A stretch of 63,758 bases of DNA from Gammaproteobacteria bacterium. Lineage in GTDB: Bacteria; Pseudomonadota; Gammaproteobacteria; Chromatiales; Chromatiaceae. Below the pieces are notes generated by a model. The model saw only the letters and a program-made list of their open reading frames with translations. It was not told the origin of the DNA and searched no databases. How positions within the stretch are numbered: position 1 is the stretch's first letter; each line of letters starts with the position of its first letter. The stretch spans positions 1-63,758 of the forward strand of contig WFXD01000041.1 in the NCBI GenBank assembly GCA_015490795.1, read 5' to 3'. The translations under genes and the position numbers were made by a program. Shown piece by piece: positions 5,771 through 48,283 of the stretch.

Positions 5771-6340
5771 ATGATGAAAAAATTAGTGTTATCGAGTTTG
5801 ATTGCTTGTCTCTCTGTAGCCCCTGCTGTTGCAGAGGATCTCACCCCGCGTGTTGATGCAAGCCGTGCGGCTGTAAAAGATTTTGCCGGTAATCTGGGTG
5901 GAGAACTTAAAGCGGCCCTGAAAAAAGGTGGGCCACTGGAGGCGATCAAGGTGTGCAATACCAAGGCGATGGGTATCACCAGGGTGCATTCTGAAAAAAA
6001 TGGTTGGCAAGTAGGGCGTACCAGCTTGAAACCTCGCAATAGTGCCAATGCCCCGGATGACTGGGAGAGGTCGGTGCTGGAGCAGTTTGAGATTCGCAAG
6101 GCAGCCGGTGAAGACCCCAAGAAGATGGAGCATTACGAGGTGGTCATGCAGAATGGTAAACAGCTCTTTCGCTATATGAAAGCGATACCGACGGCTGAAA
6201 GGCCATGCCTGGCCTGTCATGGTTCCAGGATAAAGCCGGCGATTGCCGAGACGCTGGACAAACGCTACCCTCAGGATCGGGCACGCGGCTACAAAGCGGG
6301 TGATATCCGTGGTGCCTTTACCATCACGCAAACGATGTGA
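5771..6340 (+). CDS. DUF3365 (Tll0287-like) haem-binding periplasmic protein
   Basis: 189 residues. A signal peptide (about 1-21, ending VAPAVAE) precedes the DUF3365/Tll0287-like domain. A single c-type haem site, CLACH, lies at 146-150. The region before it (YEVVMQNGKQLFRYMKAIP) and the end GDIRGAFTITQTM are characteristic of the family, which serves as a periplasmic sensor or redox protein. AAGGAG sits just upstream of tandem ATGs (5771 and 5774). It is convergent with the multihaem cytochrome gene at 6378, so the two may belong to the same respiratory function, although they are transcribed separately. Confidence 0.88.
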   Translation: MMKKLVLSSLIACLSVAPAVAEDLTPRVDASRAAVKDFAGNLGGELKAALKKGGPLEAIKVCNTKAMGITRVHSEKNGWQVGRTSLKPRNSANAPDDWERSVLEQFEIRKAAGEDPKKMEHYEVVMQNGKQLFRYMKAIPTAERPCLACHGSRIKPAIAETLDKRYPQDRARGYKAGDIRGAFTITQTM

Positions 6341-9975: not shown

Positions 9976-10650
9976 TTATAGCGGCAGGGTCAGGTTTTCT
10001 GCAATAACCCTCGCGCAGGGGGGGTGAGCTATGTGAGGCACCACCCCCAGGCAGGGCGCGGTAATGGCCGCTCGCAGTGTGGCGATGTTTTCATCGCGGC
10101 TCAGCATGTCTGGCTCCACCTCATTGGCGACCCAGCCTGCCAGTCGAACGCCGCTGGCCAGTATGCTCTCGACACTCAGCAGGGCGTGATTGATGCAGCC
10201 CAGCCTGAGACCCACGACCAATATGGCAGGCATGCTCAGCAGCAGGGCAAGATCAGCAGCAGAGTGCTCGCGGCTAAAGGGGGCCAGCCAGCCGCCCGCG
10301 CCCTCTACGATAACGTAATCAGCCTGAGCCAACAGTGACATGTAGTGGGTGCGGATCACGCCAAGCTCTACCTTTTCACCTGCCTGCATGGCTGCCAGGT
10401 GGGGTGCGATGGGGGGTTCGAAAACATAGGGGTTGAGCTCGGAATAGGGCACCGGGACGCTGCCCTGGGCCTGTATCCTGAGCGCATCCTGGTTGCGCAG
10501 CCCCCCCGCCGTCTCGGTTGCGCCTGACGCCACCGGCTTCATGCCGAGCACGCGCTGCCCCCGATTCTGCAACTGCTGCATCAGACCCAGGGTGATCTCT
10601 GTCTTGCCGCAGCCGGTATCTGTGCCGGTAATAAAGTAGCTGTTCATCAT
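9976..10650 (-). CDS. bioD: Dethiobiotin synthetase
   Basis: 224 residues. ATP-dependent carboxylation and ring closure of 7,8-diaminopelargonate to dethiobiotin, the penultimate step of biotin synthesis. The P-loop GTDTGCGKTE (9-18) and EGAGGWLAPF motif are diagnostic. Tandem ATGs occur at 10650 and 10647. The first lies inside the 5-bp target duplication of the family 1 element at 10651-10825, so the whole upstream region is element DNA (CTAGG immediately before ATGATG). It is the last gene of bioB-F-H-C-D and was probably translationally coupled to bioC before the insertion. Confidence 0.95.
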   Translation of the reverse strand: MMNSYFITGTDTGCGKTEITLGLMQQLQNRGQRVLGMKPVASGATETAGGLRNQDALRIQAQGSVPVPYSELNPYVFEPPIAPHLAAMQAGEKVELGVIRTHYMSLLAQADYVIVEGAGGWLAPFSREHSAADLALLLSMPAILVVGLRLGCINHALLSVESILASGVRLAGWVANEVEPDMLSRDENIATLRAAITAPCLGVVPHIAHPPCARVIAENLTLPL

Positions 10651-10825
10651 CCTAGAAAAATCAGTTGAACCTACTGCGGATGCCTAATGCACTCAATCTA
10701 CATGGTTTTTTCATATATTTTGAACTCACCGTATGGGTGATACGACTTCGTACAAAATATATGAAAAAACCATGTATCTTAAGCACCTTAGTCATCCTCG
10801 CTACGGCTCAACTGATTTTTCTAGG
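10651..10825. mobile_element. Family 1 miniature inverted-repeat element, copy A (stem type 1, short)
   Basis: 175 bp with terminal inverted repeats CCTAGAAAAATCAGTTGA / complement, flanked by the direct 5-bp repeat ATCAT (10646-10650 and 10826-10830). The central hairpin has arms with CATGGTTTTTTCATATATTT and its complement around a loop containing CTCACCGTATGGGTGATACG. There is no transposase, so it is non-autonomous. It splits bioC from bioD. The stop codon of bioC lies in one copy of the target duplication and the start codon of bioD in the other. Confidence 0.93.
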
Positions 10826-10826
10826 A

Positions 10827-11690
10827 TCATAACCGCCCTCGAATCAGCTCATCCACGGATACCTCTCGTCTTGTCGTACCGTGCAGCTCGGGCGCCCAGG
10901 CATGGCCATAGACCACCTCGTAGCTGGCAGGCAGCAGGCCATCACGGCGGAATGGTTCATAGGCCTTGATCATGGCCTGCATGCGCCCTTTTCCGGTCAG
11001 GCCCCGCTGCCGGTGGGTGGTGACATTGTGCGCACCGATCATCTTGAGATCCCGCATCAGCCCGGACACTTCGTTGTATGTCAGGGTCAGGCGATCCACA
11101 TCAATGACGGGGTCGGCAAAGCGGGCGCGAATCAGGGCATCCCCCACATCATGCATGTCGGGAAAGGGGCTGACGTGGCTGTGGCCATCCACTGCCTCCC
11201 AGGCCTGGCGCAGCTCCTTTAGCGTATCCAGCCCAAAGGTGGTGAACATCAGCAGACCACCTGGGCGCAGCACCCGCAGGAACTCCCGGAATGTACCCTC
11301 AAGATCGGTACACCACTGGATAGCGGCATTGGAGCAGATGAGATCCACACTGTTGTCGATGAGGGGCAGCTGCTCGGCATCGCCACAGAGACAGGCTGGC
11401 CGACGCAGCCAGGAGCCGCGCCTGCGGGTGTGGTGCAGCATCGGCAGGGCAAAGTCGAGCGCCACGATCTGCGCCTTTTTATAACGCCGGGCCAATGCCG
11501 CTGTCGCCACCCCGGTGCCGCAGCCGATATCCAGCACCACTTTTGGTTGCAGCTTGACGAGATCCAGCCGCTCCAGCATGCATTCGCCGGTCTGGCGTTG
11601 CAGCACAGCGGCATCGTCGTAGGTATCTGCTGCCCGCTCAAAGGCCAGCCGTGCCTGTTGCTTGTCGATGGGCGGTGGTTGTTCACTCAT
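10827..11690 (-). CDS. bioC: Malonyl-ACP O-methyltransferase
   Basis: 287 residues. SAM-dependent methyltransferase that caps malonyl-ACP as a methyl ester so that fatty-acid enzymes can build the pimeloyl chain of biotin. SAM motif I VVLDIGCGTG is at 51-60, AEQLPLIDNSVDLICSNAAIQW is the post-I/motif II region and VLRPGGLLMFTTFG is motif III. The start overlaps the end of bioH by 8 bp. The terminal TGA (10829-10827) lies in the right target duplication of the family 1 element. Without the element it would overlap the bioD ATG as ATGA. Confidence 0.95.
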   Translation of the reverse strand: MSEQPPPIDKQQARLAFERAADTYDDAAVLQRQTGECMLERLDLVKLQPKVVLDIGCGTGVATAALARRYKKAQIVALDFALPMLHHTRRRGSWLRRPACLCGDAEQLPLIDNSVDLICSNAAIQWCTDLEGTFREFLRVLRPGGLLMFTTFGLDTLKELRQAWEAVDGHSHVSPFPDMHDVGDALIRARFADPVIDVDRLTLTYNEVSGLMRDLKMIGAHNVTTHRQRGLTGKGRMQAMIKAYEPFRRDGLLPASYEVVYGHAWAPELHGTTRREVSVDELIRGRL

Positions 11691-12459
11691 GCGGTGGTTC
11701 CAGAAAAGCGTGCAGTGCTGCTACGGATTCGGCGTGGTGTGACAAAAAGGGGGCATGACCGCTGCCTGCCAGCCGCTTGATCTCTGCGGTGGGCAGCAGC
11801 TGATGGATATCATCCGCCACGCTGGCAGGTGCCAGGGTGTCGCGTTCGCCCAACAGCCAGAGCGTGGGGCATTGCAGCTGTGAGAGCTGCTGCCGCAGAT
11901 CGCTCTCCCGCAGCAGCTGTAGCCCCTGATCCAGCGCATCGGGGTGGGGAGCAGGCTGGTGGTCGAGATCCTGCCGCAGCCGGCGCAGGGTCGATTTGGC
12001 CGCTATCGAGCCTCTTACCTGTAGCGCTAAAAATCGCTCCAGAGTGGTTTTTGGGTCCCTGCGCAGGGTATCGGCAAAGCTGGCAAGTGAGCCGCGAACC
12101 ACCGCATGCGGCCAGTCATCGGCCTGGATAAAGCGGGGGGTGGAGGCGACCAGTACCAGCCGGGTGATGCGCTGCGGCGCGCAGAGTGCTGCCTGGATGC
12201 TGACCAACCCGCCCAGTGACCAGCCGACCCAGACGGCCTGTTCCGGTGCAGCGGCCAGGCAGGCTTCGGCCCAATCCTGCAGGCTGTGCAGCGTTTCAGA
12301 AAAGGGGCTATGGCCGTGTCCTGGCAGCTCGATGGTGGTGACGCGGTAACGGCTGCCCAACGTCTCGGCCAGTGCCTTCCAGACGCCGCTGTTCATGCCC
12401 CAGCCGTGTAGCAGCACCAGATCTGGCCCGCTGCCGGTGGTTGTGCTGTGCAGCTTCAT
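11683..12459 (-). CDS. bioH: Pimeloyl-ACP methyl ester esterase
   Basis: 258 residues from the ATG at 12459 ([11 protein letters not shown]). This start is chosen because it forms an ATGA overlap with the bioF stop; an in-frame ATG six codons upstream is possible. It has an alpha/beta-hydrolase fold with nucleophile Ser81 in GWSLGG, acid Asp207 in GERDTLAP and His235 in GSGHAPF. It removes the methyl ester added by BioC, releasing pimeloyl-ACP for BioF. Its location inside the operon between bioF and bioC supports the assignment. Confidence 0.94.
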
Positions 12460-21326: not shown

Positions 21327-22023
21327 CCCAAAAAGGTATGGAGTTGCCCTGCTGGTGCTGCTGATGCTGGGGTGCAATGGCAGCCGTGTCAAAGATTCGG
21401 TATTTGAGCCTCGCCCATTCCAGCTCAAGGATCTTGCCAAGAGCGATGTCGATCTGGTGGCAGAGACCCATCTGAAGCAGACGCTGGCACTGCTTGAAAC
21501 CCTGATGGAAAAGCTCTACCGGCGCAATCCGCAGGAGTTGCGCAAGCGTGGCATTGCAGATGTTGAAAGGGCAGTGAAACAGGTGTTTGGCCCGGGTCGG
21601 CAGCCCGGCTTCCCGGAGCTGCGGGGCCAGCGTGCGATTGACAGCATGCGCCTGGCTTTCCGGGAGAGCTATGGTGGCGATCGTGTTCTGGCGCTGGTAG
21701 AGGGGCTGCGCGGGATGGTGCTCGACTCCTACAACGGGCAGCAGGAGTTCTATCTGCCGGATGAGCTGGACCCGCAAAAGATATACAACGTAGCGCGCAA
21801 TATCGAGATTGCCGTGTGGAAGCTGAGCAATGACAGGGATGCTGAAGGGCGGCTCTATCTGCTGACCAACGATCTGACGGTGCCCAACCTCAGTTTTGAG
21901 CGGCTCTTTGGCAAGCTGATTGCCTTGCAGGATGGCATGGCGGTGGTGGTCTCTGATGCCACCAACCGGCGGATCAAAAATGTGATCCAGTCGGCTGCAT
22001 CCGCCGTGTTTATGGGGATTTAG
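21313..22023 (+). CDS. Putative lipoprotein, unknown function
   Basis: 236 residues from a GTG at 21313 that overlaps the MidA-like gene by 14 bp, which suggests coupled translation. The N-terminus has a hydrophobic stretch LLVLLMLGC, a plausible though not perfect lipobox with Cys21. The mature protein contains a conserved-looking block QRAIDSMRLAFRESYGGDRVLALVEGLRGM and a segment YNVARNIEIAVWKLSNDRD. I do not recognise the family. The 3' end overlaps the cca stop by 14 bp in convergent orientation. Confidence 0.65.
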   Translation: MAVCNPKRYGVALLVLLMLGCNGSRVKDSVFEPRPFQLKDLAKSDVDLVAETHLKQTLALLETLMEKLYRRNPQELRKRGIADVERAVKQVFGPGRQPGFPELRGQRAIDSMRLAFRESYGGDRVLALVEGLRGMVLDSYNGQQEFYLPDELDPQKIYNVARNIEIAVWKLSNDRDAEGRLYLLTNDLTVPNLSFERLFGKLIALQDGMAVVVSDATNRRIKNVIQSAASAVFMGI

Positions 22024-23227
22024 CGGCCTGCTCTGCCCAGGCCTGCTGCACGCGGCTGATGGCCTGCAGCCGCTCCCGCTGGAGGTGAACAGGAATCTGC
22101 TGCGGCCTAGTTGCAGACTGGCTGATTTTTGCGCCATCCACGCCAACGATGGCCTGATAGATCGCGCGTAAAAAATCGGCTTGGGGGTAGCTGCTCTCCT
22201 CCATGCCGGTGCGCCCCCGCACATCGGCTTTGCAGACCAGCAGGAACTGCTCAAAACGTTGCGGGTGGCGTACGGCATCCAGCCCCAGCACCATTTTCAG
22301 CAGTGTCTTCGGGCGCAGTTCAAAGGCGCGGTGACAAAGCAGATGGTAGCGGGCGGTCGGAACGGCCAGGTCGCGCCAGGCGTTGGGGATGCGTAGCCGC
22401 TTGCAGAGCGGTTTGATCAGCTTTGCACCGCGCGCCTCATGGCCATGATGGCCGGGAAGTATTGCCGCAGGTGTGTTGCCTTTGCCCAGATCGTGCACCA
22501 GTGCGGCAAAGCGTACCTGTGGGTCGCGGCTCAGGCGGCAGGCCTGTTGCAGCGTCAGCAGGGTATGCAGGCCGCTGTCAACCTCCGGGTGGTACTCTTT
22601 TTTCTGCGGTATGCCAAACAGGCGGTCAACCTCTGGCAAGACAGTGGCCAGCAGCTCCAGCTCGCGCAGGGTCTGAATGAAGATGTGGGCGCTATCCTCC
22701 GTCAGCGCCTTGGCGATCTCTGCCCAGACCCGTTCGGGCACCAGGTTGTCCAGCTCGCCCCCGGAGACCATCTGCGCAACCAGCTGTTGCGTCTCTGCTG
22801 CAATACGGAACCCCAGCGCATGGTAACGGGCGGCAAAGCGGGCGAGCCGGAGTGTGCGAATGGGGTCTTCCGCGAAGAAGGGGGTGTGACGCAGGATGCG
22901 GTTTTTCAGATCGTCCTGGCCGTTACAGGGGTCGATGATCTTGCCGTCCGCCCCCTGAGCCAGGGCGTTGATGGTGAGATCACGCCGTACCAGATCCTCT
23001 TCAATGCCGACCGCCCCGCTGTTTATGTTGTTGCGCTGGCTGCGCGGCAGGGCGTACTCCTCCTGGGTTTCGGGATGCAGAAATATGGGGAAATCCTTGC
23101 CAACCTGCCGGTAGCCGAGGGCGGTCAGCTGTGCAGGGGTCGCGCCGCTGACCAGCCAGTCGCGCTCGGTGACAGGCTGGCCCAGCAGGGCGTCACGCAC
23201 AGCACCGCCCACCAGGTAGGTTTCCAT
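22010..23227 (-). CDS. cca: CCA tRNA nucleotidyltransferase with HD domain
   Basis: 405 residues from the ATG at 23227 (METYLVGGAVRDALLG). The frame stays open 32 codons further upstream, but only through the family 1 element, so that extension is rejected. The nucleotidyltransferase head has LVGGAVRD and VTERDWLV; an HD phosphohydrolase domain has ALVHDLGKG and HHGHEARG. The enzyme adds or repairs the 3' CCA of tRNAs. The start codon overlaps the ATTAT target duplication of the element at 23231. The sequence upstream of the ATG is CTAGGATA, where AGGA could serve as a close-spaced ribosome site. Confidence 0.96.
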   Translation of the reverse strand: METYLVGGAVRDALLGQPVTERDWLVSGATPAQLTALGYRQVGKDFPIFLHPETQEEYALPRSQRNNINSGAVGIEEDLVRRDLTINALAQGADGKIIDPCNGQDDLKNRILRHTPFFAEDPIRTLRLARFAARYHALGFRIAAETQQLVAQMVSGGELDNLVPERVWAEIAKALTEDSAHIFIQTLRELELLATVLPEVDRLFGIPQKKEYHPEVDSGLHTLLTLQQACRLSRDPQVRFAALVHDLGKGNTPAAILPGHHGHEARGAKLIKPLCKRLRIPNAWRDLAVPTARYHLLCHRAFELRPKTLLKMVLGLDAVRHPQRFEQFLLVCKADVRGRTGMEESSYPQADFLRAIYQAIVGVDGAKISQSATRPQQIPVHLQRERLQAISRVQQAWAEQAAKSP

Positions 23228-23230
23228 TAT

Positions 23231-23426
23231 CCTAGAAAAATCAGTTGAGCCGTAGCGAGGGTGATTAAGGTGCTTAAGATACATGGTTTTTTCATATATT
23301 TTGGACGAAGTCGTATCACCCATACGGTGAGTTCAAAATATATGAAAAAACCATGTAGATTGAGTGCATTAGGCATCCGCACTTGTGCCCGCTTTTTGGG
23401 TAGTAGGTTCAACTGATTTTTTTAGG
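23231..23426. mobile_element. Family 1 miniature inverted-repeat element, copy B (stem type 1, long)
   Basis: 196 bp, inverted relative to copy A. Ends are CCTAGAAAAATCAGTTGA and the complement of CCTAAAAAAATC. The direct flanking repeat is ATTAT (23226-23230 and 23427-23431). It has the same CATGGTTTTTTCATATATTT stem as copy A but carries a 21-bp segment (ACCCAAAAAGCGGGCACAAG + T) that A lacks. It lies between the NDUFA9-like gene and cca and ends exactly at the cca start codon. Confidence 0.93.
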
Positions 23427-23464
23427 ATTATACTCTCAGCAGAACAGATTGGAGATGTGCAGGG

Positions 23465-41719: not shown

Positions 41720-41892
41720 CCTAGAAAAATCAGTTGAGCCTACTGTGAACGTCTAATGCACTCAATCTACAGGATTTTTCCCACATTTTGAACTCACCGT
41801 ATGGGTGATACGCAATCGTTCAAAATATGGGAAAAATCCTGTATCTTGAGCACCTTAGCCGCTCTCGCTACGGCTCAACTGATTTTTCTAGG
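41720..41892. mobile_element. Family 1 miniature inverted-repeat element, copy C (stem type 2, short)
   Basis: 173 bp in the same orientation as copy A. Ends are CCTAGAAAAATCAGTTGA and its complement; target duplication ATAAT (41715-41719 and 41893-41897). The central stem reads CAGGATTTTTCCCACATTTT with complementary changes on the other arm (type 2). The 21-bp segment present in copies B and D is missing. It lies between the rplS terminator and sbcB, so it may contribute sbcB leader sequence. Confidence 0.93.
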
Positions 41893-48088: not shown

Positions 48089-48283
48089 CCTAGAAAAATC
48101 AGTTGAGCCGTAGCGAGAGCGGCTAAGGCGCTTAAGATACAGGATTTTTTCCCACATTTTGAACGATTGCGTATCATCCATACGGTGAGTTCAAAATGTG
48201 GGAAAAATCCTGTAGATTGAGTGCATTAGATGTTCGCACTTGTGCCCGCTTTTTGGGTAGTAGGCTCAACTGATTTTTCTAGG
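48089..48283. mobile_element. Family 1 miniature inverted-repeat element, copy D (stem type 2, long)
   Basis: 195 bp, inverted relative to copies A and C. Ends CCTAGAAAAATCAGTTGA and complement. Flanks GTTAT (48084-48088) and ATTAT (48284-48288), a duplication with one change. Stem type 2 (CAGGATTTTTTCCCACATTT) and it carries the 21-bp segment also seen in copy B. It lies between the divergent deacetylase and kelch-like genes, so it occupies much of their shared promoter region. Confidence 0.92.

Follow-up and report, generated by a model that had tools for sequence, protein, structure and literature searches.

The window, i.e. the whole stretch of 63,758 nucleotides that was analysed, carries on its minus strand a biotin operon with the gene order bioB-bioF-bioH-bioC-bioD, whose products score above the cut-offs of NCBIfam equivalogs (bioB TIGR00433, bioF TIGR00858, bioH TIGR01738, BioC TIGR02072 and bioD TIGR00347). 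The distance from the bioC TGA to the first bioD ATG is 176 nt, and 175 bp of this are a mobile element flanked by a perfect 5-bp target duplication (TSD), both copies reading ATCAT. The features discussed below are these, with the kind of evidence in brackets:

10827-11690, minus strand: bioC (NCBIfam equivalog)
9976-10650, minus strand: bioD (NCBIfam equivalog)
10651-10825, no strand: the element, a near-palindromic MITE of 175 bp (copy search, fold, paired ends)
10651-10667, plus strand: terminal inverted repeat CCTAGAAAAATCAGTTG (17-mer end search)
10809-10825, minus strand: terminal inverted repeat of the opposite end (17-mer end search)
10646-10650, minus strand: left TSD, ATCAT, holding the first bioD ATG at 10648-10650 (sequence)
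10826-10830, minus strand: right TSD, ATCAT, holding the bioC stop TGA at 10827-10829 (sequence)
10837-10840, minus strand: GAGG, probable original Shine-Dalgarno (SD) sequence of bioD inside the bioC end (anti-SD pairing, sequence)
10801-10830, minus strand: nine-codon dead-end ORF MILEKSVEP behind the old SD (sequence)
12456-12459, minus strand: ATGA overlap of bioF and bioH, comparison case (sequence)
23231-23426, no strand: second copy of the family, 196 bp, with TSD ATTAT at 23226-23230 and 23427-23431 (paired ends)
22010-23227, minus strand: cca-like gene with poly(A)-polymerase-head and HD domains (domain search)

A sequence-only reading of this DNA had proposed that the element entered an ATGA overlap of bioC and bioD, so that one TSD copy supplies the bioC TGA and the other the bioD ATG, and that an overlapping junction became a spacer of roughly 175 nt with both reading frames undamaged. 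The placement of the two codons, the spacer and the undamaged frames are all found as described, and bioF and bioH do share ATGA, as had also been claimed; bioH and bioC overlap by 8 nt. Upstream of the bioD ATG no in-frame ATG, GTG or TTG is present as far back as the preceding stop. The start region of bioD in this genome is TTTTTCTAGGATGATG, downstream of a very stable hairpin.

The ancestral overlap as insertion site is borne out by the congeners. All four with a readable junction lack the element and have a 4-nt overlap of bioC and bioD, ATGA in G001, G002 and G003 and GTGA in G005, and none of these relatives shows a non-overlapping junction. In the fifth congener, G004, bioD is matched only distantly (27% identity), and this genome stands outside the count. 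These four junctions recur in the public loci L056, L057, L058 and L065, which probably come from the same genomes and were not counted again. The predicted empty site, made by joining the flanks with one TSD as GGCGGTTATGATGAAC, holds as well: the joined flanks of the window read TTATGATGAAC, and G001 has TTATGATGAATGG at the same place. Outside the genus the distance from bioC to bioD ranges between -8 and +213 nt, and the 4-nt overlap is thus a trait of this genus and not of bioC-bioD generally. Another lineage with a filled junction is G007 (L019), in which 213 nt containing repeat-like sequence separate the two genes. In a further genome bioC and bioD are kept apart by a palindrome other than the element, GTAG...CTAC (L066, about 5861-5957), and bioD there has a possible GTG start preceded by AGGA at a distance of 7 nt; this palindrome resembles the GTAG-tagged repeats named with PMC3733652.

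The element has the properties of a MITE, namely terminal inverted repeats, a TSD of fixed length, a short body without a transposase gene and many copies. In the bioC-bioD direction it has only short open reading frames, the longest of about 44 codons. The complement of CCTAGAAAAATCAGTTG ends in TTTTTCTAGG, immediately before bioD. The 26-nt arms, TSDs included, are 92% complementary, and the element with its TSDs folds as one long hairpin of -97 kcal/mol (shuffles -37 +/- 4, z = -15). In the genome of the window (G000), a gammaproteobacterial draft of 2.76 Mb in 125 contigs, the element has 81 matches on both strands, at about 40 distinct places by manual count, and the 17-bp end has 103 matches at <=2 mismatches, the reversed control giving 0. 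Among the retrieved stretches we found 34 paired copies, of which 30 measure 173-196 bp. The 5-bp TSD is perfect in 25 of the 34, and all 25 conform to NTNAN, a pattern matched by 5.2% of positions across that same DNA. Two-sided compensating changes that keep the pair occur at 14 of 71 predicted pairs (30 copies); the arms change together, through DNA-level or RNA-level means that are indistinguishable here. Matches to the element were obtained in 6 of 38 genomes (the window's own and 37 relatives), these being its own genome and five congeners, exclusively members of its own genus. Further copies in the window at 41720-41892 and 48089-48283 each lie between predicted genes.

At the contig ends L101 (C114 of G000) and L102 (C102 of G000), both included in the 34 paired copies, the sequence from the element to the end of the contig repeats the element's left flank exactly in inverted orientation, over 66 bp and 28 bp respectively, with a fold of about -144 kcal/mol; these two are probably foldback assembly artefacts. 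Together with the frequent ending of draft contigs in the element, they are what could suggest an assembly artefact at a repeat for the bioC/bioD junction too; however, this copy lies in mid-contig with a perfect TSD, its flanks run on into bioC and bioD, which are neighbours in the congeners too, and we consider such an artefact extremely improbable.

The MITE is of an ordinary kind, and its position is unusually clean. Both frames survived because ATGA followed by any base is an NTNAN site and because a 5-bp duplication copies the whole 4-bp overlap; the exact position thus follows from target preference and tolerance, and no special mechanism is needed. The expected probability of at least one ATGA-overlap match among 25 non-disruptive insertions is 0.09, so that the bioC/bioD site alone is only mildly surprising. 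The TSD covers a gene's own stop in 6 of the 34 paired copies (p 0.002), or 5 of the 25 with perfect TSDs (p 0.003), 4.0% being expected among non-disruptive target sites. The genes concerned are bioC and those for GidB-type (L083), TPR (L086) and TrkA-type (L091) proteins, a sensor kinase (L100) and phosphoglucose isomerase (L130); the TSD of L100 is imperfect, yet this copy is one of the six. The gene calls behind these counts came from a purpose-written codon-usage script and not from a standard gene finder; the six neighbours were confirmed by NCBIfam or Pfam. At 25 unpaired element ends (<=2 mismatches and an intact terminal CC/GG, from 29 at <=3) no stop lies in the target, and the pooled counts are 5/44 and 6/59 (p 0.031 each), where the 44 excludes the 9 paired copies that lack a perfect TSD, along with the 6 unpaired ends that do not conform to NTNAN. 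The unpaired ends and the pooled p value led us to reject a strong preference for stop codons, and the enrichment at targets is suggestive only. A predicted stop falls inside the element in 4 further paired copies of the 34: the ends contain stop codons (CCTAG, TTGA), and at L080, L089, L093 and L097, where a predicted gene terminates inside the element, they seem to supply new gene ends. For pneumococcal BOX repeats PMC3049150 gives 36 cases in which BOX encodes the stop codon. Like BOX as described there, the element meets gene 3' ends; unlike BOX, it keeps the gene's own stop in the TSD in the six copies above and supplies one internally in four.

The bioD start has probably paid a price. 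GGAG occupies the position corresponding to the probable old SD in three of the four congeners; the sequence ahead of the old start is CGAGGGCGGTT in the window, CGGAGCCGGTT in G002 and G003, CGGAGTCGCCT in G005 and CGAAGCCGCTT in G001. Predicted anti-SD pairing at spacings of 3-11 nt amounts to -6.4 at the old site of the window, as compared with +0.6 for the first bioD ATG and -1.8 for the second, the median over 236 predicted genes being -3.8; congener bioD genes have -5.8 (G003 and G002), -6.1 (G005) and -0.2 (G001). The second ATG reaches -4.0 only with a spacing of 0 allowed, and in 19.5% of the predicted genes the SD is no stronger than that of this ATG. The retention of the overlap in G001 at -0.2 indicates that a strong SD is maybe not needed at this junction. 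The proposal that the CTAGG of the element replaces the old signal is unconvincing in view of these energies, and both spacing and energy make the end TTTTTCTAGG unlikely as a good SD for the bioD ATGs. Judging from the sequence, the probable bioD SD, lying inside bioC, stayed with the upstream TSD copy after the insertion. The statement that both genes were left intact consequently holds for the proteins and probably fails for the bioD initiation signal, GAGG having been left with that copy. What now follows the old SD is ATG ATC CTA GAA AAA TCA GTT GAG CCG TAG, the dead-end ORF. A consensus scan of 10600-10900 found neither a sigma-70-like promoter nor an intrinsic terminator, and a promoter or terminator inside the element was set aside on that result; the element may still carry a promoter of another type. 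The ORF of about 44 codons was also rejected as a relay of coupling: it stops 10 nt before the bioD ATG, and its own ATG abuts GAGG with zero spacing.

Thus, we propose, with a probability of roughly 80%, that a MITE with an NTNAN target entered the ATGAT overlap and that bioD is now read from a weak new start beyond the hairpin, coupling being lost. In this mechanism the non-autonomous palindromic element would have entered the ATGAT of the stop-start overlap by a 5-bp staggered cut at its NTNAN target, and repair of the stagger would have duplicated the 4-bp overlap, giving the TGA to the bioC side and the ATG to the bioD side. The staggered repair is what we infer from the TSD; the placement of the codons is shown by the sequence and by the empty sites of the congeners. 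The probable SD stayed upstream, where it precedes and may now serve the dead-end ORF, and bioD would initiate past the stable hairpin, from TTTTTCTAGGATGATG. Translational coupling between bioC and bioD through the overlap would be gone and, most likely, bioD output reduced, with a weak start assisted by U-rich sequence. The base of the hairpin lies directly at the bioC stop, and ribosomes finishing bioC may open it and so help this start.

The bioD protein is still under purifying selection. Between G000 and four congeners pN/pS is 0.24-0.31 for bioD, 0.09-0.13 for bioC and 0.16-0.25 for the cca-like gene, and among those four congeners it is 0.22-0.28, 0.08-0.14 and 0.16-0.24, respectively, some of the synonymous distances, mostly those to G001, being near saturation. 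Decay of bioD is unsupported by these ratios, despite a somewhat long branch (0.144 for G000 vs 0.093 for G002 and 0.038 for G003), and mild relaxation on the branch of the window genome is possible. These data bear on a reading in which the element is a neutral passenger, the need for bioD being so small that doing without SD and coupling costs nothing and nothing compensates for it. The end of the bioC/bioD copy is unchanged, being the exact 17-mer of the family, and equally weak SDs occur in many genes; however, the constraint on bioD means that some level of the protein must be made, and we regard this neutrality as possible and somewhat doubtful.

The position of the hairpin between SD and start codon raises another possibility, a split ribosome-binding site, in which ribosomes would take the old SD in bioC together with the AUG past a hairpin that remains folded. 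The stem runs end to end and, closed at C10825-G10651, would bring GAGG to 11 nt from the first bioD ATG and 14 nt from the second; it is also maintained in the family, with the compensating changes mentioned above. Precedents are T4 genes 38 and 25, for which PMC3014915 gives hairpins shortening 22 to 5 nt and 27 to 11 nt, respectively, and thrS, presented in PMC3936740 as a split ribosome-binding site with a hairpin between SD and start codon. The layout of SD, hairpin and start at bioD is that of these published cases, and the closed-stem spacing of 11 nt matches the value for T4 gene 25 (PMC3014915); at bioD, in contrast, the hairpin is a mobile element and the function putative. The bioD stem is far longer than the T4 stems, the predicted fold pairs the TSDs too and thus covers the first bioD AUG, and stem pairing is maintained at all positions of the family, and hence has not been selected at bioD specifically. 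It is unlikely that the hairpin restores the proximity of SD and AUG at bioD, and the general idea that a palindromic element between SD and start stays translationally near-neutral by folding itself out and restoring the spacing seems to us similarly improbable. If true, this would be a transposon-made split ribosome-binding site, with bioD and perhaps the cca-like gene as natural cases, and frame safety would come from the coincidence of the NTNAN target with ATGA overlaps and ATNATG starts.

In the case of the cca-like gene the second copy sits 3 nt ahead of the ATG, and no element lies within 70 nt upstream of the gene in any of the five congeners (upstream sequence GGAGCATACAATG in G002 and AGAGCAGACAATG in G003). 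As in bioD, CTAGGATNATG leads into the start. Predicted anti-SD pairing changes from -2.7 at the old window site to -1.8 at the new one, with -5.8 in G002 and -1.9 to -2.2 in the other four; with so small a loss, the case is better evidence for the geometry than for the effect. The gene has a 45% identical paralogue elsewhere in the genome.

Returning to the proposed entry into the overlap, a transposon whose TSD is longer than the overlap can enter the tightest joint of an operon with the proteins undamaged. One genus thereby offers a clean natural experiment, its compact biotin operon existing in one form that carries a hairpin element exactly on a stop-start overlap and in another that is free of it, which makes testable what sustains downstream translation once the probable SD is left behind. 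ERIC, with its about 127 bp and TA target, is ruled out as the identity of the element, which has 175 bp and a 5-bp NTNAN TSD. According to PMC3049150 and PMC2229807, Nezha, RUP, Correia/NEMIS and ERIC are alike to it in shortness, terminal inverted repeats, TSDs, strong hairpin, many copies and presence in operons, whereas the element differs in its own end CCTAGAAAAATCAGTTG, its 5-bp NTNAN target and a duplication spanning a stop-start overlap. Among the titles and abstract openings of the literature matches listed, an insertion with its TSD on a stop-start overlap is not described, and it may still be published.

An IS701-type transposase is a candidate for the autonomous partner. G001 carries an IS701_3-type fragment (NCBIfam NF049999, E 2.1e-23, below the model cut-off) which stops 52 bp short of a diverged element end. 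This fragment has no match in G000, no element-type ends were found within the locus of a fuller copy in G002, and no complete copy with both element ends was found. IS701 has a 4-bp target, which would mismatch the 5-bp NTNAN of the element. G004 contains 12 near-identical IS-like ends that share the inverted repeat of the element. Eleven of these lie near the end of a contig; the remaining one, on C129, runs straight into an ordinary gene and seems to be a remnant.

At L119 (1444-5313) two element ends stand 3.87 kb apart and enclose FAD-oxidoreductase-like and ketosynthase-like genes. We rejected a composite element there, given the biosynthetic look of the inner genes and the unlike 5-mers at the two flanks (ATAAT, ATCAT), the latter indicating probably two separate solo ends. 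Directly 3' of the element end, the common sequence AGCCTGTCGGAC and near variants of it occur at L092, L099, L132 and two places of L138, suggesting a second repeat joined to the element.
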